Positions 44,225 to 64,000 of a stretch of DNA of 64,000 bases are shown one piece after another. The DNA is from a virus: the IMG/VR virus record IMGVR_UViG_3300041964_000083, positions 1 to 64,000 of that record; one strand, written 5' to 3'. The notes beneath the pieces were generated by a model. It was given only the letters and a program-made list of their open reading frames with translations. It ran no database searches and was not told where the DNA came from. Position numbers and translations under genes: made by a program. The stretch's first letter is position 1. Each line of letters begins with the position of its first letter.

Positions 44225-45399
44225 TTAATCGTTGGTTTCAAGAACAAATACTTGCGTACCTCGACCCAGATAATGCCAAGGCACTGGCACGATTAGATAG
44301 CAAAAGCCTTGAAGAGGAGTTTCAAACGGTTGTTCAACTCCTTGTTGATGCTCCTGATGACATCCGAATAGATGATGGGGTTGAGCCAACTGAAACATTG
44401 GTTGAGCAGATAAGCGATCGCGTAACATCCACGGTTATTAATCTGTTTGCGCCAGTTCTCGCCAAAATTGAATCCAAGTTATCTAGATCTGACAACGAAA
44501 CGTTGTCAACTGAAGAACTATTACCTGCAATTACCCGATCAGATGCTAACGTTCCTATTAAACGTGTAGTCAAACATCAAGGATTTGAGATTGGCATTAC
44601 GCACGAGAAGGATGCCATACGTTTCCCTTACTCGTTACCCCTATCGGCTGGGTATGGGCATATTCGACGCTCATACGGCGCAGCCGAGGACAAGAAGGCT
44701 ATCGATGTGTACTGGGGTGGGGATGAATCGGCTACAGATGTATATAGAGTGCGCCAACTCAACCCTGATACAGGGTTTGTAGCAGAACACGACTACTTCA
44801 TGGGGTTTGGTGGAGAAGATGCTCCTAAAGCGATTAGGGAGCTATATCTTCGACATTTAGGACAAAAGCGGTTTGGTGGGTTAGAGAAAGTAGATTTATC
44901 TCAGATTACCCAATATCAAGATAAACCATCAGAAGTGATTCCAGAAGGACATCATTGGGTAAAAAACGATAACGTCGTGGGTGGTGGTTACATCCGACGA
45001 AATTGGCGAGAACAAAAAAAAACTGACAACGATGCGTTGTTAACCGATTGGGATAATCTTCGCTACGATTCTCCAAATCAAGATGATTGGGATGATTCAG
45101 ACTACATAATTGACCACACAATGCAGCAATCGGGCAAAGTGTTCAATCGTTGGCTATCTAAGATTCAAGACTGGGTGGGCGAACAAGGAAGTTTAGAGAA
45201 TGCACGCGATCGCATTCATGAACTTTACCAACACCTTGACGGAAAACAACTCGCCCAAGTTTTAGAGCAAGGAATGACATTAGCAGATTTGAGCGGACGT
45301 TTAGCTGTGGTAACCGAAAGTGCCGAAGACGAAGAAGAAGCCAACACTGGCGCAGAAGAAGAAAGTCAAGACCGTGATGCATCGATGGAAAGAGGGTAA
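44221..45399 (+). CDS. Portal C-terminus-like protein with inserted pyrophosphatase-like domain
   Basis: A 392-residue protein. Its C-terminal ~80 residues (WLSKIQDWVGEQGSLENARD, then ALAQVLEQGMTLADLSGR-like) resemble the end of Mu-type portal proteins (DUF935). Between residues ~115 and 225, FEIGITHEKDAIRF, AGYGHIRRSYGAAEDKKAIDV and GFGGEDAPKAIRELYL match the inorganic-pyrophosphatase-like domain reported in phage polyvalent proteins. No portal N-terminus is present. Two palindromic repeat copies lie in frame within it. Confidence 0.55.
   Translation: MINRWFQEQILAYLDPDNAKALARLDSKSLEEEFQTVVQLLVDAPDDIRIDDGVEPTETLVEQISDRVTSTVINLFAPVLAKIESKLSRSDNETLSTEELLPAITRSDANVPIKRVVKHQGFEIGITHEKDAIRFPYSLPLSAGYGHIRRSYGAAEDKKAIDVYWGGDESATDVYRVRQLNPDTGFVAEHDYFMGFGGEDAPKAIRELYLRHLGQKRFGGLEKVDLSQITQYQDKPSEVIPEGHHWVKNDNVVGGGYIRRNWREQKKTDNDALLTDWDNLRYDSPNQDDWDDSDYIIDHTMQQSGKVFNRWLSKIQDWVGEQGSLENARDRIHELYQHLDGKQLAQVLEQGMTLADLSGRLAVVTESAEDEEEANTGAEEESQDRDASMERG
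44490..44508. repeat. Dispersed palindrome, copy 8 (in coding sequence)
   Basis: TGACAAC, spacer GAAAC, GTTGTCA, in frame (SDNETLS) in the portal-like gene. Confidence 0.75.
45024..45042. repeat. Dispersed palindrome, copy 9 (in coding sequence)
   Basis: TGACAAC, spacer GATGC, GTTGTTA, one arm position changed. In frame within the portal-like gene. Confidence 0.65.
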
Positions 45400-47062
45400 G
45401 CTTCATGTCGGCAAGTCTGACAAAATCGTGACTTCACAAAAACAGGCGGTCGTGATCGCGTTAAATCAATCGGGGTTATCCAATCGCAAAAAAAAGGCTC
45501 ATAGAAAAGATGCTGATAATGCTATTAATATCAGTCTTGCGCTCAAGCGAATTATTGGTTCGGTATATCGCGATGGTGTAGACGCAGTTCTTTCTTATGA
45601 TACGGATGCGACAGGTGGGATATCAGGGTTATTCCGTGATGGTCGTGAAGTATTTGATTACAGTATTGCCCCAACCGGACAAATCATGTATGTTGAAGTT
45701 GCTGATGCGAGACGGGATGCTTACCTAGAAGGGTTTTATCTGGCAGGGCGAGTACCTGATTGCAGCATTAGTAATACGTATACAAAATCAGTTTTAGAGA
45801 CAGAGCTAACACGAATAGATACTAAAAAATCACGCAAATGTAGTAGTGGTAAGTCTTGTGGCGGTAGTTGTATCGCTAAAGGTTTTAGGTGTGTTCAACA
45901 ACTTGGTCAAGGCGAACAACTTGCAGTTAAACGAATATCTCAAACTATAAAAGCCCAAAAAAGCAAAAAACAATCTCCGTTAGATACATTGAAACGTCAT
46001 GCACCAATTCTTGCTGGGATTGCAGGCGCAGGGTTGTTAGGTGCTGCGGCAGTAGGAGTCGCAATGGCAAACCAAGGCAAGCCATCTCCTACAACTACGC
46101 CTGTTAAACCTAAAGAGTATTCACCTACAACTCCTGCACAAAATCCGACATCACAACCCAAGCCACAAGCACCAGCAACAAAAAAACAATCCGGTGTAGC
46201 TGACCCGTGGGATGGACCAGAACCCGATCCTTGGGAAGGGCAAGTCACGCCAAGACCAGATACACCTCAACCTAAAACAACTCCCAAAATTACACCAGGC
46301 GCTACACCACAATTAGTACCATCACCACAACCAAAACCCCAAAACGAGGAATTTCTTCGGGAATCCACAGCTAGTGAGGCTGAAGCTGCTAAAAACACGT
46401 TACTTAATAAAAATACCGGATATAAACTTAATGAAGCTCTGGATATCCAAGGATTTGATAGCGATACAGCAAGCAAGCTAAACCATACTGTTAATCAAAT
46501 TCATAAAACAGTAAATATTCCTAATTTGTCCAAAATCCCTGTTCAGCCGTCTACGGATGGTAAAGACGACGGTAATTATTATTCTGCAACTTGTACTGAC
46601 GGTAAAACAGGTGCGTTTTTAGGACGAGTACCATTAAAGATTGAACTAGATCCAAACGGTAATCGCAAAGAATCAGCGCTTGTTCACGAAGTTGGACATT
46701 TTATTCACCATTCTGCAATTGGCGATCCTAAAGAAGGGTATAAGGGCAAAATAAAGCCTGAAATGCAAGAGTTATTTAATGCTGTAAACAAGACAAATGC
46801 TGTAAAAAAACTCGATAAGTTAGTACGTACTGCTCGAAACCAAGATATTCGTGAGCGGGCAAATTATCTCAACCAACCAGAAGAATTGTTTGCTCGTGCT
46901 TTTACTCAATACATTGCTAAAAAATCTGGTTCTAAGATATTACAAGTGCAAGTCAAGATGGGGCAAAAAGGCAAAGCCGTTGAATACTGGGATGATCGCG
47001 AATTTAGTCGTACTGTAGAACCTGCAATGGATAAATTTGCTAAAGATATGGGATGGAGATAA
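45377..47062 (+). CDS. Modular protein: DUF6496-like, cysteine signature, membrane segment, zincin peptidase
   Basis: A 561-residue protein (GTG 45320 possible). Order: a DUF6496-like basic start (MHRWKEGKLHVGKSDKIV); a beta-rich N-module (DGVDAVLSYDTDATGGISG, then GREVFDYSIAP) ending in DAYLEGF; the cysteine signature CSSGKSCGGSCIAKGFRC; a Gly/Ala membrane segment; a Pro/Thr-rich linker; and a zincin domain with HEVGHFIHH (His437) and a downstream EELFARAF Glu. The tail ends FAKDMGWR, shared with other members. It is likely a membrane-inserted virion or effector peptidase. Confidence 0.7.
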   Translation: MHRWKEGKLHVGKSDKIVTSQKQAVVIALNQSGLSNRKKKAHRKDADNAINISLALKRIIGSVYRDGVDAVLSYDTDATGGISGLFRDGREVFDYSIAPTGQIMYVEVADARRDAYLEGFYLAGRVPDCSISNTYTKSVLETELTRIDTKKSRKCSSGKSCGGSCIAKGFRCVQQLGQGEQLAVKRISQTIKAQKSKKQSPLDTLKRHAPILAGIAGAGLLGAAAVGVAMANQGKPSPTTTPVKPKEYSPTTPAQNPTSQPKPQAPATKKQSGVADPWDGPEPDPWEGQVTPRPDTPQPKTTPKITPGATPQLVPSPQPKPQNEEFLRESTASEAEAAKNTLLNKNTGYKLNEALDIQGFDSDTASKLNHTVNQIHKTVNIPNLSKIPVQPSTDGKDDGNYYSATCTDGKTGAFLGRVPLKIELDPNGNRKESALVHEVGHFIHHSAIGDPKEGYKGKIKPEMQELFNAVNKTNAVKKLDKLVRTARNQDIRERANYLNQPEELFARAFTQYIAKKSGSKILQVQVKMGQKGKAVEYWDDREFSRTVEPAMDKFAKDMGWR

Positions 47063-47307
47063 TGTTTAACTCTATAGAACAGATACAACAAGATTATAAA
47101 ATTGGTGTTGGAACCGCCAGTTTTCTTTATACGCTTGGGTACATACCAGCGCTTGAACGTTTTCCTAAATCAATCCCGATAGAAGATTTAGTAAGTATTT
47201 TTCAAAAAGAAGAGACATTAACTCCAGAAGAATCCCAGCTTATGGTGCGATGGAATAGAGGTGATATTCATCGCAGTCGTGCTGTCAATGTGCTTGTGGA
47301 GGTTTAG
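47062..47307 (+). CDS. Small hypothetical protein
   Basis: An 81-residue protein starting at a TAATG overlap with the peptidase gene. It has a helical, HTH-like look ([22 protein letters not shown] ... [15 protein letters not shown]) without a clear family. Its position right after a putative peptidase effector could suit an immunity or chaperone role, which is untested. Confidence 0.45.
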
Positions 47308-47312
47308 ATATT

Positions 47313-48203
47313 ATGACAAGTTCAGCTTACTATCAGAGTTTTGTTGAAACAACTAATAGGGTGAGACGCGATCGCATTAAAGAACGTACTGGTCGTGTGC
47401 GTTTTACAAAAGCAAAGTGCAAAAAAGGTAAGCCTTGTGGCGATATCTGCATACCTCAAAAAGCTAAATGTAATGAAGGAAATGTTCGCCCACCTAAATC
47501 ACAAGCAAATAGCATAGCCGCAAATGCTATTAGGGGTGCGGTGGCGGTAGCTGGTTTGGCTTTAGGGGCTAAAATGATTCAAGATATACAAAAAGAAGGC
47601 GAAGAAATAAAACAAGCTAAAGAAAAAGTAGCTGCTGCTGGCAAGTACAACGAAAATTTAAATAATTGGAATAAAAAATATGCAGGTAAACAATATACCG
47701 AGTTCACAACAGAAGAATGGGAACAAGCCCGTGATGAGTTTCAAAAGAATCGAGAAGAATTTAAGCGCAAAGCTGGCTTTGACCCAGATCCAGGATTTGA
47801 TGACCGATGGAAACAATCTGTAGGTTCAGGAAAACACAAACCAGATCCCGTCAAAAACGAACAAGGTAAAGCTTATTATGACGTGTTAGGTGTGCCTAAA
47901 AATGCGTCACCTCAACAAATCAAAGCGGCTTACCGCAAGCTTGCAGCACAGCTTCATCCGGATAATCGTGAAACAGGCAACCCAGATAAGTTCAGAGAAG
48001 CGACTGAAGCTTATGAAAAAGCTCAAGCACACAAAGGTTCTGCAAGAGGCAAAGGTAATCGCAAGGATAGCGTTTGGGACGACATTGAATCTGCTTATAA
48101 TGAGGCAATAGCACAACATCCAGCAATGCCCAGTAGCTACTGGTACAACTTTTCAACATACGACCCATACAACGCTTGGCGTAAGCCACTTGATTTGCTA
48201 TGA
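47313..48203 (+). CDS. Cysteine-signature protein with J-domain
   Basis: A 296-residue protein. N-terminus [18 protein letters not shown]; signature [18 protein letters not shown]; a Gly/Ala segment ([18 protein letters not shown]); a charged helical region; a J-domain with [16 protein letters not shown] and LHPDNRE; and a tail ending [11 protein letters not shown]. The J-domain would engage Hsp70. The N-terminus is shared with the next gene, and the tail matches the end of the DUF2213 protein. Confidence 0.75.
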
Positions 48204-48550
48204 ATAGTGCCGCTTATTACACCAGTTTTATTCAGACAACTGCTAGGGTAAGACGTGATCGTGCCTTACGTGCTAAACCCAAATGTAAACCCGGAAATAA
48301 ACCTTGTGGGCAACGCTGCATCCCACAAGAAGACATATGTCGTCAAAATAGCGCGGGTATGCGAGGAGCTATTCCTGCTGCACTAGCAGCTACGGCTGTC
48401 CTAGCAACAGCTGGAACTTTGTATGCTAAAAACAAGCAACGCCAAAAAAGTCAAACTGAAGATAAAGAACTTGACGAAGGATGGAACCGTCTAGGACATG
48501 AAAGTACTGAAATTTTGAGAAGAGTGCAAGGAAAAAAGAAAAGAAGCTAG
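48200..48550 (+). CDS. Small cysteine-signature membrane protein
   Basis: A 116-residue protein: N-terminus [19 protein letters not shown] as in the previous gene, signature [19 protein letters not shown], a membrane segment ([19 protein letters not shown]) and a basic tail (GKKKRS). It has no effector domain, so it is the minimal form of the family. It starts in an ATGA overlap. Confidence 0.7.
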
Positions 48551-48568
48551 TTTTGAGTTATCTTTACA

Positions 48569-49318
48569 GTGCCAAAGCGACCAGAATATTTAAACCAACC
48601 ATTTCAGGAAGCAATTGATTACTTTAAAGACAAAGTACCTTTTCCAACGCAACGTGGGCAGAAAGTGCCTGAAGGTTTCCACGACCACGCTTTCACTATC
48701 ACAGGACTTACCAAAGGCAGTTTACTAGAAGATGCCAAGTGGCTTATTGAACGGGCAATGGAAGACGGTACAGGACTAGACGACTTCACCCGTCAATTTA
48801 ATCGCTTAATTGGGCGCAAGGGATGGCAACCTGGTGATCGCCGCATTCAAACTATTTTTGACACTAATATTCGTCGCAGTTATAGTGCAGGACGGCGTGA
48901 GCAAATGCTTGACCCCGACATAGCTGATCGTCGTCCGGGTTGGATGTGGATTCATAGGACGCCAGGGAAAGAAGAAGGTGGAACACCCAGACTACACCAC
49001 CAAGCGTTGCATCGCAAAGTATTTAGGAATACTGAGACATTTTGGGATAAAGCCTTTGCTCCCTGCGGATTTGGCTGTCGCTGTACTGTTATGACGTTAA
49101 GCGAGAAACAAATGGAACGCATGGGTGTTACGTATGAAACTCCACCTAATCCTAATACCATTGCAGAACCTGGGTTTAGGAGTGCCGCAGGTTCATCGCC
49201 TAAAGAATCGCGACAACAAATCCTAAAAGACGGATTAACGGGTCTTTCTCCTAGCATTAGAGAAGTGGTGGAAAAAGACCTTAGCGCCAAAGGAGTTTTG
49301 GACGATGGTAACGATTAG
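48569..49318 (+). CDS. Mu gpF-like minor head protein (MuF)
   Basis: A 249-residue protein. DRRIQTIFDTNIRRSYSAGRREQ, RPGWMWIHRT, HHQALHRKVF and CGFGCRCTVMTLSEKQ match the MuF family, which joins portal and capsid in Mu-like phages. No toxin domain is attached here, unlike many MuF proteins; instead, domain-bearing proteins flank it. The start is GTG 48569. Confidence 0.85.
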   Translation: MPKRPEYLNQPFQEAIDYFKDKVPFPTQRGQKVPEGFHDHAFTITGLTKGSLLEDAKWLIERAMEDGTGLDDFTRQFNRLIGRKGWQPGDRRIQTIFDTNIRRSYSAGRREQMLDPDIADRRPGWMWIHRTPGKEEGGTPRLHHQALHRKVFRNTETFWDKAFAPCGFGCRCTVMTLSEKQMERMGVTYETPPNPNTIAEPGFRSAAGSSPKESRQQILKDGLTGLSPSIREVVEKDLSAKGVLDDGND

Positions 49319-49760
49319 TGCTGCAATAAGCGATCGCGAACTCAAAGATAAACTTACCCAACTTCAGCAGGTTACAGCCGATTTAGGTAAACTCAAGCTT
49401 GTTGTAGGAACTCCTATCAAATACATGAAACAGCATCAGTTAGGTACAAATGGAATGACAAAACGAGAGTTTTTGGGGATTAGTCGAACTGATCGCCAAG
49501 AAATAATTGAAATTTTTGATGATGCTATAGCCGAGCCTGTACCAAGAGGTGCTGAAATTGCTTTACGTGAATGCGGTGAAACGTTACTCCTAAGTATAGA
49601 TACCCGTTGGGATAGAGAAATTGCGCCAGATGGTACACCTTGGAAGAAAAACACACCTTACACAAGAAGGTTAAAAAAAGCCAAAGGACGAATACTAAAA
49701 ACATTGCAATCTACAGGTCTAGCACGCGCAAGCATTAACTACCAAATCATTCGTGAGTAA
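49305..49760 (+). CDS. Mu gpG-like virion morphogenesis protein
   Basis: A 151-residue protein. YMKQHQLGTNGMTKREFLGI, IALRECGETLLLSIDTRWD and APDGTPWKKNTPYTRRLKK with RILKTLQSTG follow the phage virion-morphogenesis (gpG/tail completion) pattern. It overlaps MuF by 14 bases and the convergent HTH gene by 42. Confidence 0.75.
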   Translation: MVTISAAISDRELKDKLTQLQQVTADLGKLKLVVGTPIKYMKQHQLGTNGMTKREFLGISRTDRQEIIEIFDDAIAEPVPRGAEIALRECGETLLLSIDTRWDREIAPDGTPWKKNTPYTRRLKKAKGRILKTLQSTGLARASINYQIIRE

Positions 49761-50282
49761 GTCACAAAGAGCATCATCTAACTGCTTAAATTCCTCACAC
49801 TCTCGCAGTATTCGTGCGATCGCCCACACCTCAAGCAAATAAATTCGGACGAAGCCTGATTCAATTCGCCACAACAAAGCAGCGTCTATTCCTGTTCGTC
49901 TTGACAGTTCGTTTCTATTTATTCCAACGTTCAGTCTAGACTTGCAAATTAAAACACCTGTTTGTTTATGGATATCACGAGTTCCGTGATTTCCTTTGGG
50001 AAAATGTGTATCTAAAACTAATTTAAGCTGTGCAATTTCAGGTGAATACACACTAAACAGGCTAGCAATATCCTTGACTTCAAATAAATCTAATTTTCTG
50101 ATTCCATGTTCTATATATTCAACGCTAGTGCGATTTAGGTTAATTAATTCCCCTAGTTTTTCTTGCGTAATTATGTTTCGATGATTACGCCGACGCAGGT
50201 TATAGATAATTTTCCCCAATGCTTTATATGGGTTCACACCTAAATAGGATATATTTTTTTCTGAGATTTTACGCTGCATCAC
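49719..50282 (-). CDS. Regulator with two HTH domains inside head module
   Basis: A 187-residue protein with two Xre-like units: LGKIIYNLRRRN, TQEKLGELINLNRTSVEYIE and, after ~50 residues, NRNELSRRTGIDAALLWRIE. It is on the opposite strand from the structural genes on both sides, like a moron expressed from the prophage. Its 3' end overlaps gpG. Confidence 0.7.
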   Translation of the reverse strand: MMQRKISEKNISYLGVNPYKALGKIIYNLRRRNHRNIITQEKLGELINLNRTSVEYIEHGIRKLDLFEVKDIASLFSVYSPEIAQLKLVLDTHFPKGNHGTRDIHKQTGVLICKSRLNVGINRNELSRRTGIDAALLWRIESGFVRIYLLEVWAIARILRECEEFKQLDDALCDLLTNDLVVNACAC

Positions 50283-50412
50283 AGTTCAACTACTAATACC
50301 CATCCTCACTTTAATTCGATAAAACCTGCTTAAGTGATGCAAAACTGAGTAGTTCCACCAATTTGCTTGTTGAAATCTTTAGTATTTAGCTAGCGATTTT
50401 ATAAGTATTTTG

Positions 50413-51969
50413 GTGGCTACACGCTACGACTCAGGCAAACTTCGTAAAGCTCATAAAACTGCCGAAGGCGCATTGTTTTCGGAAGCTATTTATGCGCGAG
50501 ATGGCGTTTTAGAGTATCGCCTTCCCAACGGTGGGACAAGGCGAGAACTTCGCTTACCAGAAACCAACTACGACGAGGAAACGCTGACTAGTTACGGCTC
50601 AAAACCTATAACGGTCGAGCATCCACCTGTTTTAGTGACAGCGGATAATGCAAAAACTTATCAAGTTGGAGCATCAGATGCTGAACCAATGTATGAACGT
50701 CGCTACGAAAAGGGTTTTGTTGGCGGCATTGTTCGTATTTGGCATAGCGATGGCGTGAATGCTGTTGAGTGCAATGGGAAGAAAGAAGTATCCATTGGTT
50801 ACACCTGTGACATTGAACCCGTTGGTGGCATCTACTACCCAAAAACAGGCACTTATGTTGTTACCGATGCTGCTCCAGATAAGGGTGGTGAACGATTTGA
50901 CGCCATTCAGCGCAACGTTCGCGTAAACCATATTGCACTTACTTCTAAAGGTCGTGCTGGTCCAGAAGTCTGCTTGCGAATTGATAGCGAAGACGATGAT
51001 GTTGCCATCCTTGCCAAACCGTTTGAATTTCGCAAAGACGAATATGTAATTCCTGATTCTCCTTTACCTACTACTAACTCACCCACAAAACGCATGGCTG
51101 TCATCCGTATCGACAACATGGATTTTTCTGATGTGCCGGAAACTGTTGCGGTACTGATGAACCAAAAACTCAACGCTCTTGTAGAGCTTCAATCTCGCAA
51201 AGACGCTTTAGAGATTCAATTTCAAGAGCGCGAAGAACAACTCGATGAATTGCGAGAACAAGTAGACGAAGTTGCCGACGAGCGCGATCGCGAACGTGGT
51301 AGGGCTGACGCTTTAGAAATTCAACTCGCTGAAGCTGAAAGTAGGCAAGATGCTGCGATGCCATACAAAGGCAAGAAAAAAGGCAAAGCTCCCATTGTTG
51401 AGGTTGACGAAGACGAAGATTTTGACCCAGATGATATCGACGAGCTGGGTGACGATGACGAAGCTGACGATGAGGACGATGACGAAGATATGGAACCTAC
51501 GCCAATACCAAAGAAAAAAGGGGGACGGAAGGATTCTGATTTTGTTGATGTTGACCCTCATCAGCTGTTTGTTGCTTACGTTGATGCCAACAAAATTGTC
51601 CCTGGTTTGATTTCTGAAGACAAACTTGATTCGTTTGCCACACCTACCGATGTTCGTCGGCTGGCTATAGAAACGCTTAATCCCGATATTGACTTAACAA
51701 ATCGGAGTGATGCCTATGTTGATGGGGTTTATGACTTTATCAAATCTCAAAAGCTTCAAACTACCGAACAGTACCCGGAGCAGCTAGAACGTAACGACAG
51801 TATTAACACTACTTCCTATATCGGTTCTCATACACCACCTAGCGAAATTCAAACTGCGATCGCGCAAGCTCGCTCAAATAGCACTCCTACTTCCCCGCTG
51901 CAAGGTGCAGCAGAAAAGCAACGCGACCTCTACATGAATTCTTGGAACAAACCCCTCGACTTGGTTTAA
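50413..51969 (+). CDS. DUF2213 prohead protease/scaffold-like protein
   Basis: A 518-residue protein (GTG 50413; TTG 50410 possible). The N-terminal ~210 residues match DUF2213 (PITVEHPPVLVTADN, EVSIGYTCDIEPV, NHIALTSKGRAGPEV). Then come a coiled coil (LQSRKDALEIQFQEREEQ), an acidic tract of Asp/Glu, and a scaffold-like tail ending NSWNKPLDLV. It probably processes or scaffolds the procapsid. Confidence 0.75.
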   Translation: MATRYDSGKLRKAHKTAEGALFSEAIYARDGVLEYRLPNGGTRRELRLPETNYDEETLTSYGSKPITVEHPPVLVTADNAKTYQVGASDAEPMYERRYEKGFVGGIVRIWHSDGVNAVECNGKKEVSIGYTCDIEPVGGIYYPKTGTYVVTDAAPDKGGERFDAIQRNVRVNHIALTSKGRAGPEVCLRIDSEDDDVAILAKPFEFRKDEYVIPDSPLPTTNSPTKRMAVIRIDNMDFSDVPETVAVLMNQKLNALVELQSRKDALEIQFQEREEQLDELREQVDEVADERDRERGRADALEIQLAEAESRQDAAMPYKGKKKGKAPIVEVDEDEDFDPDDIDELGDDDEADDEDDDEDMEPTPIPKKKGGRKDSDFVDVDPHQLFVAYVDANKIVPGLISEDKLDSFATPTDVRRLAIETLNPDIDLTNRSDAYVDGVYDFIKSQKLQTTEQYPEQLERNDSINTTSYIGSHTPPSEIQTAIAQARSNSTPTSPLQGAAEKQRDLYMNSWNKPLDLV

Positions 51970-51972
51970 ATT

Positions 51973-52848
51973 ATGGCTGAATTCTTTCCCACACATAACC
52001 CAGTCGGAGGGCAAACCGACTATCGCACTGATATGTTTGTTGCCTTACCCGGAATGCTTTCCGGTATGGGTAGCTCACGTATTCTCCCTCACGTTAATGA
52101 CGTTGGTGCTGTTGACACGTACACAATAACCACTGGCGCAGTTACAGCAAACACCGAATACAGCGCAATGATTCAAGGGCAACGCATCAGTTATATGTCA
52201 GATGCTGATCCGACTATTGCTGAAGTCATTACTGGAATCTACAACGAGATTAGGTTAAAACCTACGGTGTATCGTCTTGCCGACTTGACTAAAAACGATA
52301 CAACCAACACGCTTACACTAACTGGACGCATTCAAGGCGTACCGTTAAGCATTACGGGGCAAGGACTAACCGTTACCAAAGTGGTAACGGGTTCTAACCT
52401 ATGTGACGCATCTAATCTTGTCATTCCCTTCGGTCGTTTTGTTGGTCGAAAAACCGATTACAAACTCGACCCGCGTGAAGGTGTGAGTTCAGCAACATTG
52501 ATTGACTCGCTCACTGACGAAATCTTGGGCATCACCAAACGTACTCATCACACCGAACAAGTTGGGTATTTCCACTGCGCTCAAAGTGGATATATGTTCG
52601 GGGACACCATGAACGTCATGGAAGACACCGGAACGATTAAGGGTATCTGGACAGAGTGTGTTGAAGCTGATTTAAAGATTGGCGAGAAAGCCTATTGCGC
52701 GATCGCACCCGGTTTAAAAGGCAAGCTCACTCGCGACACTACGGGCAAAGACATTTCTGCAATGTGCCGAATTGTGGGAGCAACCGAACCTACGGTTGGC
52801 GGACTTTTCATGGCGTTATGCCAGTTCAACCGCTACGGAACTTGGTAG
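51973..52848 (+). CDS. Head decoration/structural protein (DUF2190-like)
   Basis: A 291-residue beta-rich protein between protease and capsid. LIDSLTDEILGITKRTHHTE and FMALCQFNR-type C-terminus, with IKGIWTECVEADLKIGEKAYC, resemble capsid stabilising proteins. Exact family uncertain. Confidence 0.55.
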   Translation: MAEFFPTHNPVGGQTDYRTDMFVALPGMLSGMGSSRILPHVNDVGAVDTYTITTGAVTANTEYSAMIQGQRISYMSDADPTIAEVITGIYNEIRLKPTVYRLADLTKNDTTNTLTLTGRIQGVPLSITGQGLTVTKVVTGSNLCDASNLVIPFGRFVGRKTDYKLDPREGVSSATLIDSLTDEILGITKRTHHTEQVGYFHCAQSGYMFGDTMNVMEDTGTIKGIWTECVEADLKIGEKAYCAIAPGLKGKLTRDTTGKDISAMCRIVGATEPTVGGLFMALCQFNRYGTW

Positions 52849-52889
52849 GCAAAACAGCTAATAACGAACGACTAACAACCAATAATTAA

Positions 52890-54398: not shown

Positions 54399-54406
54399 GT
54401 TAAATC

Positions 54407-54607: not shown

Positions 54608-54624
54608 TATAAATTAACGTAATT

Positions 54625-54644
54625 TTGACAACGCATCGTTGTCA
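54625..54644. repeat. Dispersed palindrome, copy 10
   Basis: TTGACAAC, spacer GCATC, GTTGTCA. It is in the short gap between two small head-module genes and could act as a hairpin in the late transcript. Confidence 0.8.
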
Positions 54645-54655
54645 GTTTGATTTTT

Positions 54656-55248: not shown

Positions 55249-55667
55249 TGTGGGGAGAACATCTCAGTGACATGATTGGGTTAAGAGATGAGCTAGCAGC
55301 TGAAGCTGAAGGACTCGACACAATTCGATCGCTTATCATCCGTCGTCGTAATCGAGACGATGAAACATTCCTGGAAATAACACCTAAGCCCCACATTACC
55401 TACACATCGCCACAAGAGAAGGGGTTAGAAGGCGCTACTCAAATTCAAGCCGCTAACCAGCAATTTCAGGTAAAGGGTATTAGTAAACGGTATTTGTACG
55501 GGGATTTAGTTGGGCAGCGACTTGACTATTGGATAGATGGCGTTGTTGTAGACGAACAGCTTACCGAAGGTATTCAGTGTAGCTTTGTCTCGATTGAGGA
55601 GAAGAGTACTACGTGGGATATGGTGTTAGAGAGCAAAATAGGAGAGCAGCAAGTCTATGTTTATTGA
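55248..55667 (+). CDS. Neck/tail-associated hypothetical protein
   Basis: A 139-residue protein, beta-rich, starting at the previous stop (TGATG). It has the place of a neck or tail-completion protein, but no family match is visible. Confidence 0.5.
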
Positions 55668-55872
55668 CGACTCACACCTTAAGAAATCGCTATTTAGTGA
55701 CATCTGCACCAAATGCAAGCACTTAGACTTAGAATCTGCCAAAACAGATAAGAAAATCTGTACAGCATTCCCCGATGGTATCCCATTTGAAATATGGTCG
55801 GGTAAGAATGACCACAAGAAACCCTATCCAGGTGATCGCGGTATTCAATTTAAGCTCAAAACCATTAAATGA
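55657..55872 (+). CDS. Small CxxC protein with FPDGIP/PYPGD motif
   Basis: A 71-residue protein. [25 protein letters not shown], and YPGDRGIQF form a pattern I recognise as a widespread short phage/bacterial protein with no known function, often next to head or toxin genes. The CxxC/His/Cys set could bind zinc. It overlaps the neighbours. Confidence 0.6.
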
Positions 55873-57311
55873 ACGCAGCAACTCTCCCTAAACTTAGCCC
55901 TCAGCAACGCATTCGATTAATGCTCAAGCGTGTTATCGAGAGCGGATTTACGTCAGGGATTAATGGGGTGTTGAGTTTTGATTTGGAAGAAGATGGAAAG
56001 ATAACGGGAAAGTTTTTAGAGAATCGTCAGGTTTATGACTTCGCGATTACACCTAACAATATTTTGAGTTATGTAGAATCAAAAGTTAGGAGTGATGCTT
56101 ACCTTATTGGCTACTACGGAGATAGCGGTTTATTAAAATATGGAGCAAGACTAGACACAAGTAGTAGCAAGCGTCGTTGTGTAGCAGGTAAGCCATGCGG
56201 AAAGACTTGTATTACCAAAGGCAAGAAGTGTTCGATTAAGCTTGGCAATGTCGCAGCTAAAACAATGGGTGCAATTCGCACTCAATTAAAATCTGCACCG
56301 CCTGACACAAATAAGCAAGATGTTGCCAAAAAATATAATGTAACTCCATTAATAGCAGCCGGTGCTATAGCAGGTGCTGCTGTAATTGGGATGTCCGCAG
56401 CTAGCTATATGGCATTTCGTTCTGAATATCGAGAAGGATTTAAGGAGTCTGCCGAAAAGGTAAAAACAGCTGTTAAAGAGAAGCTTGACAAGGATTCTGA
56501 TACTACACCGCTTAAGACAGGCTTGAATGGTGACAAAGACATTGATGCTGATGAAATAACACTTGTTGTTGGTGGTTTTGCTGGACAAGATGGAAAAAAT
56601 TCTGAAAAATGGGCAAAACAATTACTAGGTAATGATGGATTATTTGATAATCATTATGTAGAGCCTATTGAAAATAAAGAATTTGATGTAGATTTTCAAG
56701 AACATATTGAAAACACTAAAAAAGGTCAGTTTAGTCCTGGAACAATTACAGGAAATAATAAAATTTTAGCAATGGAAATGTCTTGGGCAAAGATGCTCAA
56801 TACAGCTATTGGTAAAAAACATAACCCTGTTTCAGTGAACCTTGCAACCCAAGCTTATTATTATCACCAAAAATATCCAGATAAACCTATTAACTTGATG
56901 GGTTATTCGGCGGGTGGGATGGTTACACACGAAGCTGCGGAGATATTAAAAGAGTTGGGTGTTACTAAAAATGTAAAAACCGCTAATTTTGGTAGCCCTT
57001 ATTGGGGGTTGACAGAAAAAGTTGGAGATTCAATTACATTTGCATCTGATAACGATCAGAATATGACAGGAATGCCCATTCGCGATCGCGTAGAAGTAAG
57101 TTCAGTACATAATCATTTTGATTATTTAAAAAACCCTACGGTTAGAAAACAACTCAAAGGATTCTTGGGTGGTAAAGCCGTATCTGGTGAAAAAATTAGC
57201 AAAGAGCAAGAAGAGCGCATTAAAAAAGCTCAGTCACGACGGGAAAAACGTAATCCTGAAGAATTGAAGCGAAAATTAGAAGAGCGCAATAGACGGAGAA
57301 AACAAAACTAA
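55869..57311 (+). CDS. Cysteine-signature protein with serine-hydrolase domain
   Basis: A 480-residue protein. N-module ([30 protein letters not shown]) to SDAYLIGYY; signature [18 protein letters not shown]; a membrane segment ([20 protein letters not shown]) and [10 protein letters not shown]; then an alpha/beta-hydrolase with nucleophile Ser347 in [18 protein letters not shown], an Asp in ASDNDQ and His in VHNHFDYL. The tail is very basic. A lipase- or esterase-like activity on the membrane or wall is plausible. Confidence 0.7.
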
Positions 57312-59569
57312 TGGTTGCAACTTCAGTTTCTACACCGTCTAGACAACAGACCGCATTAGCTTTAAAAAAGATTATTGAGTCTTCATTTACTAGCGGTATA
57401 GATGCTGTACTTAGTTTTGCGTTGGATGAAGACAATACGATTACAGGTAAATTTTTAGAAAATCGTCAAGTTTATACTTTTGAGATATCTCCAAAAAACA
57501 GAATTCGGTATGTTGAAGCACAAGCAAAAAGCGATGCATATCTAGCGGGTTTTGTTGAAGTTATGCCTATCCGCTTAGACAAAATGAACGGAGGTAAGAA
57601 GAAGCGCTGTATTGTTGGTAAAGCGTGTGGTGGTACTTGTATAGCAAAAGGAAAGGTGTGCGATCGCGAACTATCACCTAAAGCTGCCCAATTAAGTAAC
57701 GCAGTGCGAAAGGTGTTAGGTGGCAGCACAACTAAACCACCCGAACAGAAATTTCCAAAGATTAATCCAGGTCTTGTCGGTGCAGCTGTATTTGCAGCTG
57801 GGGTATTAGGTGTGCCTGTTGCTGGATATTTAGCAACAAGAGCAACATACCGCGCAGGCTTTAGTGAATCTGCGGAGATTGCTAAAAAAGAAGCTGAAAA
57901 ATTAGCAACTCAAAATTATAAATGGACTAAACGAGACAAAAAGCTTATTGCAGCTTCAAAGTTTAAAGGCGAAGGTGTTCCTGAACCTAAAAGTGAAGGA
58001 GAGCCAGCAATTCCAGATGTACTCTACGGTGGAACTCCTAATGAACGGTATTTTTTAGGGGAAGTCGGAAAACGCTACGGCAAAGAACCAAGCGAAATGT
58101 ACAAAAAAGCTAAGCAAATTACGTTAGTTGCTAATGGGTTTGCCGGAGAAGACAACACGGACTCAGGCGTCAGTGTTTCAGGCGATTTGATGGGTAACGA
58201 TGGTCTATTTGACGATCACCACGTTGTTCCTATTGATGCGTCTGGTTTTTCCCCTAATTTCATGAAAGGTGAAGAAATTGCCAAAAACGTTTTAGAAAAA
58301 GTATTTAAAGAAGGTCGTAACCCCGTAGCCGTCAGAATGGCGTCACACGCCTACGCATTTAGTAAAAAACATCCAGATGTACCTATTAACCTAATTGGTT
58401 ATTCTGGTGCTGGAATGGCAACCCATGAGGCACAGGAAATATTAAAACAAATGGGTGTTAAGGTACGTGTTGCTAACTTTGGCTCACCTTACGGGGGGTT
58501 AACTGAAAAAGTAGGTGACTCGGTAACATTTAACAGCCCATCAGATTTTGTTACTCGTCATACACCTGTTCGAGACGAAATTAATGTTCCTCATGTAGAT
58601 GGACATTTTAAATATTTATTAGATAGCAAAGTCAGAGGAAAACTTCGGGATTACTTTGACGGCAAGAAAATTAAAGGTGAGCCAACATCTCTTGAGCAAG
58701 AAAGACACGCTCAAAATGTACTGAAAAAAGAGACATCGGCGTTTGCTGAAAAACAAGCTCGGTTAAGAGAAATTGACCGTAAGCGGAAAGAGCGTGGAGC
58801 AAAACGTAGTAAAAAAAAACTAGATAGCATCAAACCAAATTGTTCACCTAAAAGTAAATTGTGTGGCACTCGCTGTGTTCCTAAAGAATACAATTGCAAA
58901 CAAACTAAACAAAAACCATTCAATGCAACAAATGCTGTTTCTATAGGTGTTGGAATAGCTGCTACTGTGGGACTTGGGGCAGCTATAGCCATTCCGGCAT
59001 CGATGGCTCTACATACAGAAATTGCAAAAAATCGTGCTGAAACTGTAAAACGCAACGTTGAAAAAGAAGAAGATGCAATTAAAGACTCACCTGTTGAGCA
59101 TTTTGTAATTATTAATCCCAAAACAGGAAAGACAATAGCAAAAGGTTCTAGCAACGAAGCAACAAGAGTGGATATTCCTACTGAAGCTATGGGTAAAATG
59201 AAGGGCGCTATTTTTACCCATAATCATCCCAAAGCTCTTAATTTTCCAGAATCTCATCCTCAAGGTAAAGGTACTAGTTTTTCTGAAGCTGATATTCGTA
59301 TTTCTTGTCAAATGAATGTTAAAGAGATGCGTGCTGTGAGCCGAAAATATCGTCATAGCTTAAGCGTAGGTGCTAAGGGTTGGGGGGATTGGGATAATCA
59401 AGTAAAACCTATATACGACAAACACGACGAACAACTTCTAAAGGAATGTCAAGATCATATACTTTCTCGCAAATACAAAGCCGCAGAGCTAAACGCAATT
59501 TATCACCACGAACTCAATAAGCGTGTAGCTAAAGATATGGGATGGACTTACATACGAACACCTATTTAA
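57311..59569 (+). CDS. Cysteine-signature protein with hydrolase and JAB/RadC-like domains
   Basis: A 752-residue protein. N-module, SDAYLAGF, signature 1 CIVGKACGGTCIAKGKVC, membrane segment, and a hydrolase (Ser365 in IGYSGAGM; the second Gly of GxSxG is Ala). Then a basic linker, signature 2 CSPKSKLCGTRCVPKEYNC, a second membrane segment (SIGVGIAATVGLGAAIAIP), and a C-terminal JAB/RadC-like domain with VEHFVIINPKTG, THNHP and SFSEADI. The end reads AKDMGWTY. It is a head-to-tail fusion of two family members. Confidence 0.7.
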   Translation: MVATSVSTPSRQQTALALKKIIESSFTSGIDAVLSFALDEDNTITGKFLENRQVYTFEISPKNRIRYVEAQAKSDAYLAGFVEVMPIRLDKMNGGKKKRCIVGKACGGTCIAKGKVCDRELSPKAAQLSNAVRKVLGGSTTKPPEQKFPKINPGLVGAAVFAAGVLGVPVAGYLATRATYRAGFSESAEIAKKEAEKLATQNYKWTKRDKKLIAASKFKGEGVPEPKSEGEPAIPDVLYGGTPNERYFLGEVGKRYGKEPSEMYKKAKQITLVANGFAGEDNTDSGVSVSGDLMGNDGLFDDHHVVPIDASGFSPNFMKGEEIAKNVLEKVFKEGRNPVAVRMASHAYAFSKKHPDVPINLIGYSGAGMATHEAQEILKQMGVKVRVANFGSPYGGLTEKVGDSVTFNSPSDFVTRHTPVRDEINVPHVDGHFKYLLDSKVRGKLRDYFDGKKIKGEPTSLEQERHAQNVLKKETSAFAEKQARLREIDRKRKERGAKRSKKKLDSIKPNCSPKSKLCGTRCVPKEYNCKQTKQKPFNATNAVSIGVGIAATVGLGAAIAIPASMALHTEIAKNRAETVKRNVEKEEDAIKDSPVEHFVIINPKTGKTIAKGSSNEATRVDIPTEAMGKMKGAIFTHNHPKALNFPESHPQGKGTSFSEADIRISCQMNVKEMRAVSRKYRHSLSVGAKGWGDWDNQVKPIYDKHDEQLLKECQDHILSRKYKAAELNAIYHHELNKRVAKDMGWTYIRTPI

Positions 59570-59650
59570 CAACATTGATTCAATTTTGAGTAGTTTTTAT
59601 AACCATCACGTACACGACCCTAAACTTAAGAAGTCGCGCTATGTCTTGTT

Positions 59651-60415
59651 TTGGCAGATTTATCAGACACCTACGTTGAGGCGTTACTCTTGCAGTTGGC
59701 TAGGGGTGATTCTGCTTGTAATGCTACTGAGCGTGTGCGATCGCGTGCTTATCGTCAAGGATTTTTGAGAATTGACCGCACAACCCCTAACTGTTCGCCC
59801 AAAAGCAAGTTGTGCGGAAATGCTTGTGTGCCTAAAACCAAAAAATGCAAATCGACAACAAAGCTATCTAGAGCAAGCTCACCAGACTTTGTTAGACAGA
59901 GAGTTGAGGCTGAAGAAGACAAACTAAAAGATCTTCCATACGAACACTTGTTAATAATCGATTCTAAGACTGGCGATGTACTAGCTCACCGTACTGACAA
60001 TCACCCTACACAGGTAGGTTTTGATGCTAGCGACTTTCCCAAGATAAAAGGCGCGATCGTTACCCACAATCATCCAAATGCTTACGGGTTCCCACCTAGC
60101 CATCCTGCTTCTAAAGGTATAAGTCTATCCCCTCCTGATATTCAAGTGGCTTGTACTTTTCGTCCAAAAGAAATGCGGGCTGTAAGCGCAGGCTATCGAC
60201 ACGTTCTTAGTCCGGGTGAAAAAGGTTGGGGGGATTGGAACTGGCGGGTAAAGCCAGTTTACGAGAAACACGAACGTCAAGTGATGAATGAATTTCAAAC
60301 AGATTTAATTTTAGGGAGAAAAGCAGCGTCACAGCTAGAAGCAGATTACCACCATGAAATAAATACTCGAACCGCAAAAGAGTTGGGATGGAAATACGAA
60401 AGGCAGGTTATTTAG
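59651..60415 (+). CDS. Cysteine-signature protein with JAB/RadC-like domain
   Basis: A 254-residue paralogue of the C-terminal third of the previous protein. Signature CSPKSKLCGNACVPKTKKC; a helical link; YEHLLIIDSKTGDVL; VTHNHPNAYGFPPSHP; and SLSPPDI, matching the E...HxHP...SxxD metal-site pattern of JAMM/RadC domains; and AKELGWKY at the end. No membrane segment is visible. TTG start at 59651. Confidence 0.65.
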   Translation: MADLSDTYVEALLLQLARGDSACNATERVRSRAYRQGFLRIDRTTPNCSPKSKLCGNACVPKTKKCKSTTKLSRASSPDFVRQRVEAEEDKLKDLPYEHLLIIDSKTGDVLAHRTDNHPTQVGFDASDFPKIKGAIVTHNHPNAYGFPPSHPASKGISLSPPDIQVACTFRPKEMRAVSAGYRHVLSPGEKGWGDWNWRVKPVYEKHERQVMNEFQTDLILGRKAASQLEADYHHEINTRTAKELGWKYERQVI

Positions 60416-61018
60416 ATGGAGTTTAGAAAGCTTGTTCAACCCATAGCAGAAGCGATCGCGCTAACTTTTGATGCTCCTGTGGATGAAATTTTAACAGCTA
60501 ACCTTGATTCTGAAGGTATTGTGTTTGGACAACTTTTGTCTGAAGGTAAATTTTATTCTTATGCATCAAATGGTAATGAAGTTGTTACAAGCTACCACCA
60601 AGACGCAACTGATTATTTAGATGAATACGCAAAAGGTTTTTTAAATAATATAAATATTCATGTTGATTCATCAAATACTTATGATTACGCTTGTGGCTTC
60701 TTCCGAGTTGATGCACAAGTAAAATGTAGTCAAGGTAATCAACCTTGTGGAAATCGCTGTATTTCTAGAAAAAAGCGATGTCGTAAAAATATGAAAAACC
60801 CTGCTAAAAACGCGATGAGACAAGGACTTGTTAGTCTTAAAAATCCAGCTAATCAAGCATTTGGAGCAGCCGCAGGTATTGCAGGAACTGTAGGAACTGC
60901 TGTTTTAATGGGTGCGGGTATGGCTGCGGGTTCCGCACTTTACGAAAACAGAGAAACAATTATGCGAGATGTTCAATCAGGTATCGACAAAGCAAAGCAA
61001 CGTATTCAAGGCAAGTAA
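60416..61018 (+). CDS. Cysteine-signature membrane protein
   Basis: A 200-residue protein. A diverged N-module (AIALTFDAPVDEILTANLDS, GKFYSYA) leads to YDYACGFFRVD, then signature CSQGNQPCGNRCISRKKRC, and a long Gly/Ala membrane segment (AAAGIAGTVGTAVLMGAGMA). A short charged tail replaces an effector domain. It is a close paralogue of the next gene. Confidence 0.65.
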   Translation: MEFRKLVQPIAEAIALTFDAPVDEILTANLDSEGIVFGQLLSEGKFYSYASNGNEVVTSYHQDATDYLDEYAKGFLNNINIHVDSSNTYDYACGFFRVDAQVKCSQGNQPCGNRCISRKKRCRKNMKNPAKNAMRQGLVSLKNPANQAFGAAAGIAGTVGTAVLMGAGMAAGSALYENRETIMRDVQSGIDKAKQRIQGK

Positions 61019-61043
61019 GAATTACGAAAGGAAGGTTATTTAA

Positions 61044-62075
61044 ATGAACGACAGAGAAATTACACAACCAATTGCTGAAGCAATTACGCTAACATTTGAT
61101 GCTCCTGTTGATGCAGTATTAACCGCGAACCTAGATTCTGATGGTGTTTTGTTTGGTCAAATAATGTCCGGGGGAAACTTTTACTCATACATTGCCGATT
61201 CCGACACAATCACTACTTATTATCATCCCGAAGAAACTGAGTATCTAAACGAATACGCTCATGCCGTACTCGACAACATAGGTATTCATACTGATGCTTG
61301 GGAGACATACGATTATGCATTGGGGTTTTTCCGTGTTGATGCACAGATGAGATGCAAACCAGGAAACAAACCCTGTGGTAGGCGTTGTATCCCTCAGCAA
61401 ATGAAATGTAGAAGTGCAATGGGCGGTGGGGCGCAAGCAAAAATGCGACAAGGGCGTGCTAACTTACGCGCTCCTGGCGCAGGTGCAATTGCCGCTGGCG
61501 TTGTTGGTGCTGCGGCATTAGCTGCGGGTGGTGCTGCGGCTTATCAAAACAGAGAAGAGATTGCTAAAGGTGCAAAAAAAATTGGGCGACAGGTACAAAA
61601 AACCGCACTTGTAGCAAAGCGGGAAGTAGAAGGGAAAGCCGCAGAACTTGCTAGCAATGTCAACAAAGGTGTAGAGGTGGCTAAAGAAAACATTCAACAA
61701 GCTGCAAAGAAAACGGGTCAAGCGGCACGAATAGCTGGCAAGAAAGCGACACGCGCTGTAGAACGTACAAAAAAAGAAGTCGATAAAAATTACAAAGAAA
61801 CAAAAAAAGAAGTCGATAAGAAATACCATGAAACTCGTAAAGCGGCTATAAGAACAGCTAAAGAAGTAGGAGTCGCTGGCAAAAGACTTCAAAAACAAGC
61901 TGAACGGAAAGTAGCTGAAGTTACAAAAGGTGCTGAAAATACAGGTAAGAAGATTCAACAACAAGCACGCAAAAGCAAGAAGCGTGGTGAACGTTATGCT
62001 GCTGACCCAGAAAGAGTACAGAAAGTGGGTAAACGCTTAGGCGATCGCTGGGCAAGAAATATGGGAGCAAAATAA
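61044..62075 (+). CDS. Cysteine-signature membrane protein with long basic coiled-coil tail
   Basis: A 343-residue protein. The first ~170 residues parallel the previous gene, including signature [19 protein letters not shown] and the membrane segment (GAIAAGVVGAAALAAGGAAAY). Then comes ~160 residues of Lys/Ala/Glu-rich helix with repeats of KKEVDK type, resembling LEA- or apolipoprotein-like amphipathic helices. The tail ends WARNMGAK. It may be a membrane-spanning or DNA-contacting internal virion protein. Confidence 0.65.
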   Translation: MNDREITQPIAEAITLTFDAPVDAVLTANLDSDGVLFGQIMSGGNFYSYIADSDTITTYYHPEETEYLNEYAHAVLDNIGIHTDAWETYDYALGFFRVDAQMRCKPGNKPCGRRCIPQQMKCRSAMGGGAQAKMRQGRANLRAPGAGAIAAGVVGAAALAAGGAAAYQNREEIAKGAKKIGRQVQKTALVAKREVEGKAAELASNVNKGVEVAKENIQQAAKKTGQAARIAGKKATRAVERTKKEVDKNYKETKKEVDKKYHETRKAAIRTAKEVGVAGKRLQKQAERKVAEVTKGAENTGKKIQQQARKSKKRGERYAADPERVQKVGKRLGDRWARNMGAK

Positions 62076-64000
62076 TGATTGCTGTTCGCTATGATCGTGC
62101 CAAACCTAATTGCAAAAAAGGTAAGCCTTGCGGTAGCGTTTGCATTCCGCAAAAAGCTAAATGTCGTAAAGAATCTCCACAAGAAACTAATACAGGTGGG
62201 GATGGCGCAATCAAAGCAGCGGGCTGGGCAGTTGCGGCTGCCGCAACTGCCGCATTAATTGGTGTGCCTGTAGCCACTTACGCTGGTGTGCGATCGCGTT
62301 ATCGAGAAGGGTTTAAAGAATCTGCCAAAATGGCACAGTCAATGGCAAAGGATATAGAACCTATCAATGTAAAGGAAAAACAGCACTCTGTTGTATTTTG
62401 TGTTGGTGGAATGGACTATGGGCATGAAAACACTAATCCTAATATTAGTGGCAGAATAATTTCTTTAGCCGTTAATAAGTCTTTATCCCAAAAAGATAAA
62501 GGACTAAAGACAATTCCTATTTCTACACAAGGTAGTAATTTAGATAAGAAAGAGAAACCAGAAGGTATTCATCAATTTGTTGCTGATGGATTTAAGCGAA
62601 CTGTTTACAAAAATGTGGTAGAGCAAGGTAGAAATAAAGCTGCGGTAAGGCTTGCTGCACAGGCGATCGCGTATCACGATAAATACCCAGATAAGCAAAT
62701 CGTCATGTTTGGTACTTCTATGGGTGGGATGATTGTCAATGAAGCACAGGAGATACTAAAACAAGCCAAACCGTCTATGAAGAGCAAGCTTAAGTCAATG
62801 ACGGTTGGAACTCCTTATTTTGGGCTAACTGAGCCTTGGGGAGAAACGACAGAGATTGCTGCACACGAAGACAAATTTACAACCGTTTTACCGACGCGAT
62901 CAAAGACTAAGTTATTTAATCTCAAGCACGTAAACACTAAATCTACGGATGTGCTTCATGGACATTTGTTAAGTGATTATTTTCAGTCAGATGAGGTGAA
63001 AAAACATTTATCAGATTTTATTTATAAAGATGTTAAAACAACTAAAAATACCAAAAAAGACTCAGCTAACGAACCTAAATGTCGGACAGGACAACCATGT
63101 GGGGAGATTTGCATACCTAAAACACATAAATGCAGAATAGGTTCTTATTCTCCTGCAAAAAAAGCAAAAGTTGAAGCTGTAAAAAGAAAACGACGACAAG
63201 TCGCATTAATGAAATTTTCTGCCGCAATAGGCGTACTTGTGGCATTTGAAGCTGCGGTTGTTGCCACGAATTACGCAATTGACAGAAGGAATGAGCAAAC
63301 AATAGCTGAAGAAAAAGAGGTTAAAGACGATTTTCAATCAGATGTCGACAATTTTGTAGATTTTCGTTCCGAAATGAGAGATAAGGCTCGATCATGGGGT
63401 GTTGGTCGAGGATATACGGATATTGAGCTTGTAGATGATTGGTATTGGGGCTTTCCTCCTACAGGGTATATGCAAGAACCTATTCAAAGTGAAAACCAAG
63501 AACTAGAACAAGTTAAAAAATCACTACAAGACATGGAAAAGAAGTGGCGCGATCGCGCTAACGTTGAGCATTTTAACAATATCCCTGATACAGCGCATAG
63601 CAAGAATAGAAAAAAAGCTACTACAGATTCTATTGCTGTCACCAATCCACATTATCAAAAACTTATATTTCAATTAAAAACTATTCTAAATCGTGTTTAT
63701 ACAGATGGTATTGATCATTTTATAAAAGTAGAAGTTGATAAGGCTAATACTATAACTGGGTTATTCAGAGATGGTACAAAAATATTAGAGTTTACGATTA
63801 AAGGTAACGACATTACTTATAAAAAAGCAGGATTTAAAAACAAAAAAGACTCAACTTATTATGATTCTTTGGCATTAGAGTTAACGTTACGTAGTGATGC
63901 GATCAAGAAAAAAGATAAATGCGTAAAGGGTATATCTTGTGGGGCAGCTTGTGTTGCTTCTAATAAATCATGTCGATTGAAAGCTAACGCGATCGCGTCA
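62075..64000 (+). CDS. Large modular protein with three cysteine signatures, 3' end outside window
   Basis: The frame is open for 642 codons to the window edge; it starts at a TAATG overlap. Order: signature 1 [18 protein letters not shown] (residue ~13); membrane segment; REGFKESAK; hydrolase with Ser215 in FGTSMGGM and VGTPYFGLTE; signature 2 CRTGQPCGEICIPKTHKC (~335); a second membrane segment; an aromatic linker; an N-module copy (YTDGIDHFIKVEVDKANTI); and signature 3 CVKGISCGAACVASNKSC (~616). It reads as fused copies of the family unit, likely to be followed by another effector. Confidence 0.75.
   Translation, partial: MIAVRYDRAKPNCKKGKPCGSVCIPQKAKCRKESPQETNTGGDGAIKAAGWAVAAAATAALIGVPVATYAGVRSRYREGFKESAKMAQSMAKDIEPINVKEKQHSVVFCVGGMDYGHENTNPNISGRIISLAVNKSLSQKDKGLKTIPISTQGSNLDKKEKPEGIHQFVADGFKRTVYKNVVEQGRNKAAVRLAAQAIAYHDKYPDKQIVMFGTSMGGMIVNEAQEILKQAKPSMKSKLKSMTVGTPYFGLTEPWGETTEIAAHEDKFTTVLPTRSKTKLFNLKHVNTKSTDVLHGHLLSDYFQSDEVKKHLSDFIYKDVKTTKNTKKDSANEPKCRTGQPCGEICIPKTHKCRIGSYSPAKKAKVEAVKRKRRQVALMKFSAAIGVLVAFEAAVVATNYAIDRRNEQTIAEEKEVKDDFQSDVDNFVDFRSEMRDKARSWGVGRGYTDIELVDDWYWGFPPTGYMQEPIQSENQELEQVKKSLQDMEKKWRDRANVEHFNNIPDTAHSKNRKKATTDSIAVTNPHYQKLIFQLKTILNRVYTDGIDHFIKVEVDKANTITGLFRDGTKILEFTIKGNDITYKKAGFKNKKDSTYYDSLALELTLRSDAIKKKDKCVKGISCGAACVASNKSCRLKANAIAS

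Follow-up and report, generated by a model that had tools for sequence, protein, structure and literature searches.

The closest described systems are the polyvalent proteins, which join several unrelated enzymes on one polypeptide and are believed to be carried in the virion and injected (Iyer et al., 2017, PMC5512222), the MuF polymorphic toxins (Jamet et al., 2017, PMC5576092) and the virion kinases of the cyanomyoviruses S-CBWM1, S-CRM01 and S-CREM2 (PMC10665884). Here we analyze nucleotides 1-64000 of the 153,952-base virus record IMGVR_UViG_3300041964_000083 (the whole stretch is termed the window, the virus the window phage) and a gene cassette therein, the products of which share a four-cysteine module of 18-19 residues (Cys4, signature C-x5/6-CG-x2-C-x6-C). 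Our best reading is that Cys4 is a new module shared by virion-borne effectors of the polyvalent type, to which membrane anchors were added in a filamentous-cyanophage lineage. We put at roughly two in three the probability that the cassette specifies such effectors, built of exchangeable parts, which would be made late, be held at the portal or head, leave together with the DNA and act early. In the main text of Iyer et al. (2017) the words cysteine, DnaJ, transmembrane, lipase and disulfide do not occur, the main text of Jamet et al. (2017) is free of any mention of cysteine, and the sections of PMC10665884 concerned with virion kinases do not mention such a module beside them.

In agreement with a preliminary description of this DNA, 12 Cys4 signatures were found in the window, all of them in frame and on the plus strand (starts at 45839, 47418, 48284, 56178, 57608, 58841, 59792, 60725, 61353, 62111, 63080 and 63920). 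In 60 shuffles that preserve the dinucleotides, the same six-frame count averaged 0.05 and never exceeded 1, and a stricter pattern, C-x2-GK-x-CG-x2-CI-x5-C, gave five matches in the window and none in 100 shuffles. The 12 copies had been assigned to eight adjacent genes. In fact they are spread over nine, named here by their start positions (45320, 47313, 48200, 55869, 57311, 59651, 60416, 61044 and 62075), with two copies in 57311 and three in 62075, as described before; the genes form two groups on either side of the MuF, protease and capsid genes and, because these intervene, are not all adjacent. About three more copies occur in the rest of the genome. One is located at 82.4 kb in a 684-residue ParB-like protein (gene 82085) and another around 127.9 kb (G000:C1:127872-127931), distant from the head genes, in a small open reading frame with CDNGFKPCGKQCIPIGTYC, while the 62075 gene contains, past the window, a fourth near-copy, CKTGKPCKDVCIPKNAIC, in which CG is changed to CK. 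The genes concerned and the head genes around them, all on the plus strand, are as follows.

44206..45399, plus strand: head-vertex-associated protein (phrog_220 minor head/DNA pilot 2.5e-12; phrog_113 portal 6e-12), related to a central stretch of the portal proteins of CL131 and PaV-LD; probably InPase-like, judging from its sequence and PMC5512222
45320..47062, plus strand: N-module, Cys4 (45839-45892), transmembrane (TM) segment (about 46007-46063) and zincin (HEVGH), 580 residues; N-module E 1.7e-26; zincin matches phrog_4529 minor head/DNA pilot (4e-16) and, weakly, LPD1 and ATLF
47313..48203, plus strand: Cys4 (47418-47471), hydrophobic segment and J-domain (Pfam DnaJ 7.7e-15 at residues 188-235), 296 residues
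48200..48550, plus strand: Cys4 (48284-48340) and a TM-like hydrophobic stretch of 19 residues, no effector, 116 residues
48569..49318, plus strand: MuF head protein without Cys4 (Phage_Mu_F 1e-10; phrog_220 2e-64)
50410..51969, plus strand: DUF2213-type prohead protease/scaffold; relatives are CL131 gp038, PaV-LD ORF071 and genes of contigs L151, L152, L159 and L160
52890..53825, plus strand: major capsid protein; relatives are CL131 gp040 and PaV-LD ORF073
55869..57311, plus strand: N-module, Cys4 (56178-56231), TM segment and alpha/beta-hydrolase (GYSAGG; Pfam Cutinase 1e-4 and Thioesterase 3e-4, below cut-off), 480 residues
57311..59569, plus strand: N-module, Cys4 (57608-57661), TM segment, alpha/beta-hydrolase, Cys4 (58841-58897), TM segment and JAB, 752 residues; the JAB half is 50% identical to the 59651 protein
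59651..60415, plus strand: Cys4 (59792-59848) and JAB/RadC-like domain recognized by fold, no TM segment, 254 residues
60416..61018, plus strand: N-module (E 1.2e-26), Cys4 (60725-60781) and TM segment, no effector, 200 residues
61044..62075, plus strand: N-module, Cys4 (61353-61409), TM segment and Lys-rich coiled coil, 343 residues; orthologue of CL131 gp045 (tblastn 2e-30)
62075..64000, plus strand: start of a 1549-residue multi-effector protein that ends at 66724, with Cys4 at 62111-62164, 63080-63133 and 63920-63973; orthologue of CL131 gp048

The N-module comprises about 100 residues and was recovered in seven copies in the window phage, 82085 included, by a hidden Markov model (HMM). 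In the AlphaFold model of the 55869 protein, its four strands follow one helix and precede another, the helix-strand core having a pLDDT of about 90. The shared N-module noted in the preliminary description was thus recovered, its proposed ending, DAYL-x-GF, being conserved only loosely. A further cysteine cluster beside a DAYLxGF motif, GDCGGTCACNSCSGRSDAYLAGFWSVSR, is found at the C-terminus of a 162-residue protein encoded upstream of the cassette (43736-44224). Within Cys4 the four cysteines are invariant and the glycine is nearly so, GK usually precedes the second cysteine and I usually follows the third, and the first loop ranges from 5 to 7 residues. The AlphaFold models show short strands here (block pLDDT 77-93). 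A Gly/Ala-rich hydrophobic 19-mer follows the module in 10 of the 14 copies of the window phage, in line with the membrane segment reported earlier, and positive charges are similar on both flanks of the TM segment, so that charge gives no orientation of the enzymes. The label "membrane proteins" fits the lineage of the window phage and Aphanizomenon phage CL131; elsewhere, a hydrophobic segment is nearby in only 1 of 83 Cys4 copies, and the signature itself is therefore not a membrane marker.

What follows the module varies, as had been recognized: a zincin, a J-domain (HPD), an alpha/beta-hydrolase (GxSxG), JAB, a coiled coil or nothing. In 82085, a ParB-like domain adds to this series. The J-domain is recognized by Pfam and the zincin by PHROG 4529. 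Pfam matches of the hydrolases are weak but consistent in the window phage and stronger in CL131 gp048. The JAB domain of 59651 belongs to the RadC-like JAB/MPN group by fold (Foldseek, RadC 2qlc with probability 0.97 and E 0.013, Rpn11 homologue 6fno with probability 0.91) and by its HxHP...S..D motif, here THNHP...SLSPPD. The 62075 protein has the order Cys4-TM-hydrolase-Cys4-TM-...-N-module-Cys4-hydrolase-Cys4-TM-J-domain, its J-domain, the second of the cassette, lying past the window (Pfam 1e-13), and for the ParB-like effector of 82085 the match is a portal C-terminus (phrog_21, 2e-20). The earlier statement that no described family has this signature agrees with the search results: no Pfam or NCBIfam model matched above cut-off over Cys4, and in PHROGs only multi-domain families (e.g., 16619 and 33618) include it. 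Single Pfam matches at E > 0.01 (PDGF, Zn_clus, Synapsin) were taken as chance. A profile of N-module plus Cys4 found no PDB sequence, and Foldseek with the corresponding model found no match in the PDB (best E 0.12); in BFVD, only proteins of CL131, PaV-LD and Nodularia phages appeared at E < 0.001, the accessions being assigned to CL131 and PaV-LD from length and prefix.

The window phage is related to viruses of filamentous cyanobacteria. CL131 has an orthologous cassette, gp044-gp048, at the same position, and the order protease, one further gene, major capsid protein, three genes, Cys4-JAB protein, N-module-Cys4 protein, giant Cys4 protein and tape-measure protein is common to the window phage, CL131 and viral contigs L155 and L159. 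L160 and L166 share it up to the giant protein, the following gene not being matched to a tape-measure protein, and L154 and L162 cover it in part. In L151 and L152 a single giant N-module-Cys4 protein, which in L152 carries an LRAT domain (3e-11), is encoded between the MuF/neck and protease/capsid genes. Planktothrix phage PaV-LD has at least seven proteins with N-module and/or Cys4, some with ADP-ribosyltransferase (ART) or zincin-like domains. The versions in Nodularia phages are DUF3626 and ParB-like; neither the PaV-LD nor the Nodularia phage proteins have clear TM segments. PaV-LD ORF079 (L023:38750-40525) places two tandem ART-like domains behind one N-module-Cys4, and ART-like genes near it are annotated as minor head protein. 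Neither the 55869 protein nor the capsid protein, used as queries for related loci, returned anything usable, and a search of plasmids gave no matches. Directly after the 62075 gene follows a tape-measure protein of 3821 residues (L017:6725-18190, i.e., G000 66725-78190), the first part of which consists of dozens of imperfect repeats of about 40 residues, LTQSLGEVPxLFNSAFTRGSQxAxNALQNIGGIDT.

Compared with polyvalent proteins, the cassette has at least two unrelated effectors on one polypeptide (hydrolase and JAB in 57311, hydrolases and J-domain in 62075), a shared repertoire (zincin, JAB/RadC fold and ParB-like here; ART, kinase, GNAT and zeta toxin in relatives), linkage to head genes in a conserved order with MuF, protease, capsid and tape-measure genes, and, in relatives, fusions to portal or MuF. 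What the Cys4 proteins have in addition is Cys4 itself, the N-module, J-domains and TM anchors. With MuF polymorphic toxins they share head linkage, exchangeable C-terminal effectors and adjoining portal/MuF genes; unlike these toxins they have no MuF domain, which occurs only in 48569, itself devoid of Cys4, and because MuF is a separate gene they do not fall under the definition of MuF toxins. The cyanomyovirus virion kinases differ from the effectors of the window phage, which are other enzymes. The sequences show modularity, synteny and fusions, and the build first proposed, in the style of polymorphic or polyvalent proteins, is well supported.

Four independent lines of evidence link these proteins to the virion. 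The first is the head-gene synteny. Secondly, fusions join the module or its effectors to head proteins: lambda portal-Cys4-GNAT/ART-like in L146 (1071 residues), lambda portal-Cys4-zincin in L109, a portal tail followed by Cys4 and a ParB-like effector of the same type as in 82085 in L037, and, in L164, a JAB domain as the C-terminus of a Phage_min_cap2 protein; the zincin of the window phage also matches head-morphogenesis proteins of Akkermansia phages. Thirdly, the N-module occurs inside the portal-MuF protein gp012 of CL131 (HMM E 3.7e-7), which its authors report among the proteins identified in CL131 virions (PMC6293099). In this protein of 1393 residues (MG209611.1 8800-12981) portal, InPase-like part, N-module and MuF are united; the window phage encodes the InPase-like part and MuF each in a gene of its own. 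Fourthly, APH, ChoK and Rio2 kinases were identified by proteomics in virions of Synechococcus phage S-CBWM1 (Xu et al., 2018, as related in the virion-kinase sections of PMC10665884), and all three, gp162 (APH-like), gp161 (ChoK-like) and gp113 (RIO-like), have an N-terminal Cys4. For gp113 and gp161 (L167, L168) the GenBank starts are apparently too far downstream, Cys4 preceding the annotated start; with the in-frame ATGs at 70398 and 117830 as starts, both gain a complete module. S-CBWM1 gp174, an annotated virion structural protein encoded directly upstream of the capsid gene, has a Cys4 variant, CVKGKSCNAACIHRNKDC, and the virion-kinase list as cited there does not include gp173, a PknB-like kinase that lacks Cys4. 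Cys4 marks the enzymes found in S-CBWM1 particles and is therefore probably a shared part of packaged, delivered proteins. The preliminary proposal of virion-borne effectors delivered on infection accordingly finds good support in synteny, portal and minor-capsid fusions and these kinases.

The module extends beyond this lineage. The stricter DNA pattern C-x2-GK-x-CG-x2-CI-x5-C, first checked on the window, matched at least 118 stretches of viral contigs, and the matches listed are of two kinds, large proteins of phages and small proteins exported by bacteria. Among these matches were 61 non-redundant large proteins in which Cys4 is combined with diverse effectors according to Pfam, i.e., protein-kinase-like domains (12, with which APH and ABC1 matches probably overlap), lambda portal (2), zeta toxin, HNH, ART-PolyVal, DUF3626, hydrolase and GNAT. 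Neighbors of the large genes, again among the matches listed, are often terminase large subunits and tail fibers, and the three clusters viewed in full are all near terminase; this counts as supporting evidence only. The small exported proteins share the core CxxGKxCGxxCIxxxxxC and differ from the phage proteins by their short length, a signal peptide or lipobox, extra cysteines and the absence of an effector; no NCBIfam model matched the examples scanned. Several (L106, L092, L073 and others of L031-L148) read CCKxCRKGKACGNSCISRxxTCHxPxGCACDG, the Cys4 core with additional cysteines.

Several points weigh against assigning the cassette to virion-borne effectors. The proteomics concerns relatives, and for the window phage itself a virion location is inferred. 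The S-CBWM1 data were taken from the relevant sections of a later citing paper (PMC10665884), and it is by their GenBank product names that gp162, gp161 and gp113 were matched to the three kinases. The virion kinases of S-CRM01 and S-CREM2, like an HNH protein of S-TIM5 annotated as virion structural, have no Cys4, which is thus not required for packaging. Two cassette genes have no effector at all, and TM segments were scored by hydropathy alone. The Cys4 core is also present in the small exported bacterial proteins, which have no visible phage-effector role.

With regard to the chemistry of Cys4, degenerate copies are informative. In these, the first and third cysteines (C1 and C3) are lost jointly and C2 and C4 are kept; Y, H or F takes the place of C3. 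This is seen in four lineages (CL131/L155, L160/L166, L122 and L090), and no convincing loss of a single cysteine or of another pair was found in the degenerate copies examined; the glycine is sometimes lost while all four cysteines stay. About four independent loss events therefore suggest two disulfides, C1-C3 and C2-C4, rather than one metal site with four ligands, and Cys4 most likely folds as a beta hairpin that would be held by them. That exported bacterial proteins share this core fits an oxidizing environment. The alternative is a zinc knuckle, or a metal site of another kind, for the binding of packaged DNA or of a head protein, which is itself compatible with virion-borne effectors. 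It would explain the four invariant cysteines and the strongly basic character of the module (mean net charge +2.7, with Lys/Arg ahead of C1) in proteins made in a reducing cytoplasm; since at least four lineages have lost C1 and C3 as a pair, and in view of the exported lipoprotein-like proteins and the variable first loop, we consider it possible but less likely.

If the cassette encodes virion-borne effectors, these would be retained at the portal or head, once made late in infection, by the N-module and/or Cys4. Their shared N-terminal part is the N-module, which the CL131 portal-MuF protein also contains; other phages have in its place the portal itself, or no more than a short basic leader. 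Cys4 and one of many enzymes follow. Disulfides would form in the oxidizing virion or outside the cytoplasm. Having exited the head with the DNA, the effectors may work early as peptidase, JAB protein, J-domain co-chaperone, lipase-like hydrolase or ParB-like protein, and in relatives as kinases, HNH proteins or ADP-ribosyltransferases. In the lineage of the window phage and CL131, where a Gly/Ala TM segment would have been added after Cys4, the delivered proteins probably lodge in a host membrane, which would suit lipase- and LRAT-type partners. Speculatively, and with rather less likelihood than the zinc site, Cys4 might be a portable virion-cargo tag across very different phages, such that an effector gaining it is loaded into the head. 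Its disulfides, formed in the virion, would then serve as a redox switch that releases or activates the effector once the host cytoplasm reduces them.

The proteins could instead be late-expressed, unpackaged host-membrane proteins, the TM-bearing hydrolases and peptidase modifying or weakening host membranes at lysis or assembly. The TM segments, the lipase- and LRAT-like partners and the late-operon position agree with this, as does the fact that the virion location in the window phage is itself inferred; given portal-Cys4-effector fusions, the N-module within the CL131 portal, the joining of effector domains to minor head proteins and Cys4 in the S-CBWM1 kinases reported from virions, it appears improbable. 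Least probable is that the N-module-Cys4-coiled-coil proteins are structural neck or tail (tail or connector) parts with enzymes as decorations. In its favor, the genes have head-completion genes on one side and the tape-measure gene on the other, a place in which one expects a major tail protein (according to the bioinformatic part of PMC6293099, none was recognized in CL131), and two lack an enzyme. Against it, the copies vary in number and order, TM segments do not resemble tail proteins, the catalytic motifs HExxH, HPD and HxHP..S..D are kept, and similar modules occur elsewhere in the genome (82 kb, past the tape measure).

Virion-delivered effectors are usually recognized only via fusion to a known head protein. 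A short, searchable module common to portal fusions, kinases, nucleases, peptidases and hydrolases would reveal many more of them and hints at the way in which a single particle may come to hold unrelated enzymes. The pairwise pattern of its cysteines allows a direct test for a redox mechanism. In phages of filamentous cyanobacteria there are up to about ten such genes, made up of modules not mentioned in the main text of Iyer et al. (2017), which bears on the paucity of polyvalent proteins in cyanobacteria remarked upon there (PMC5512222).

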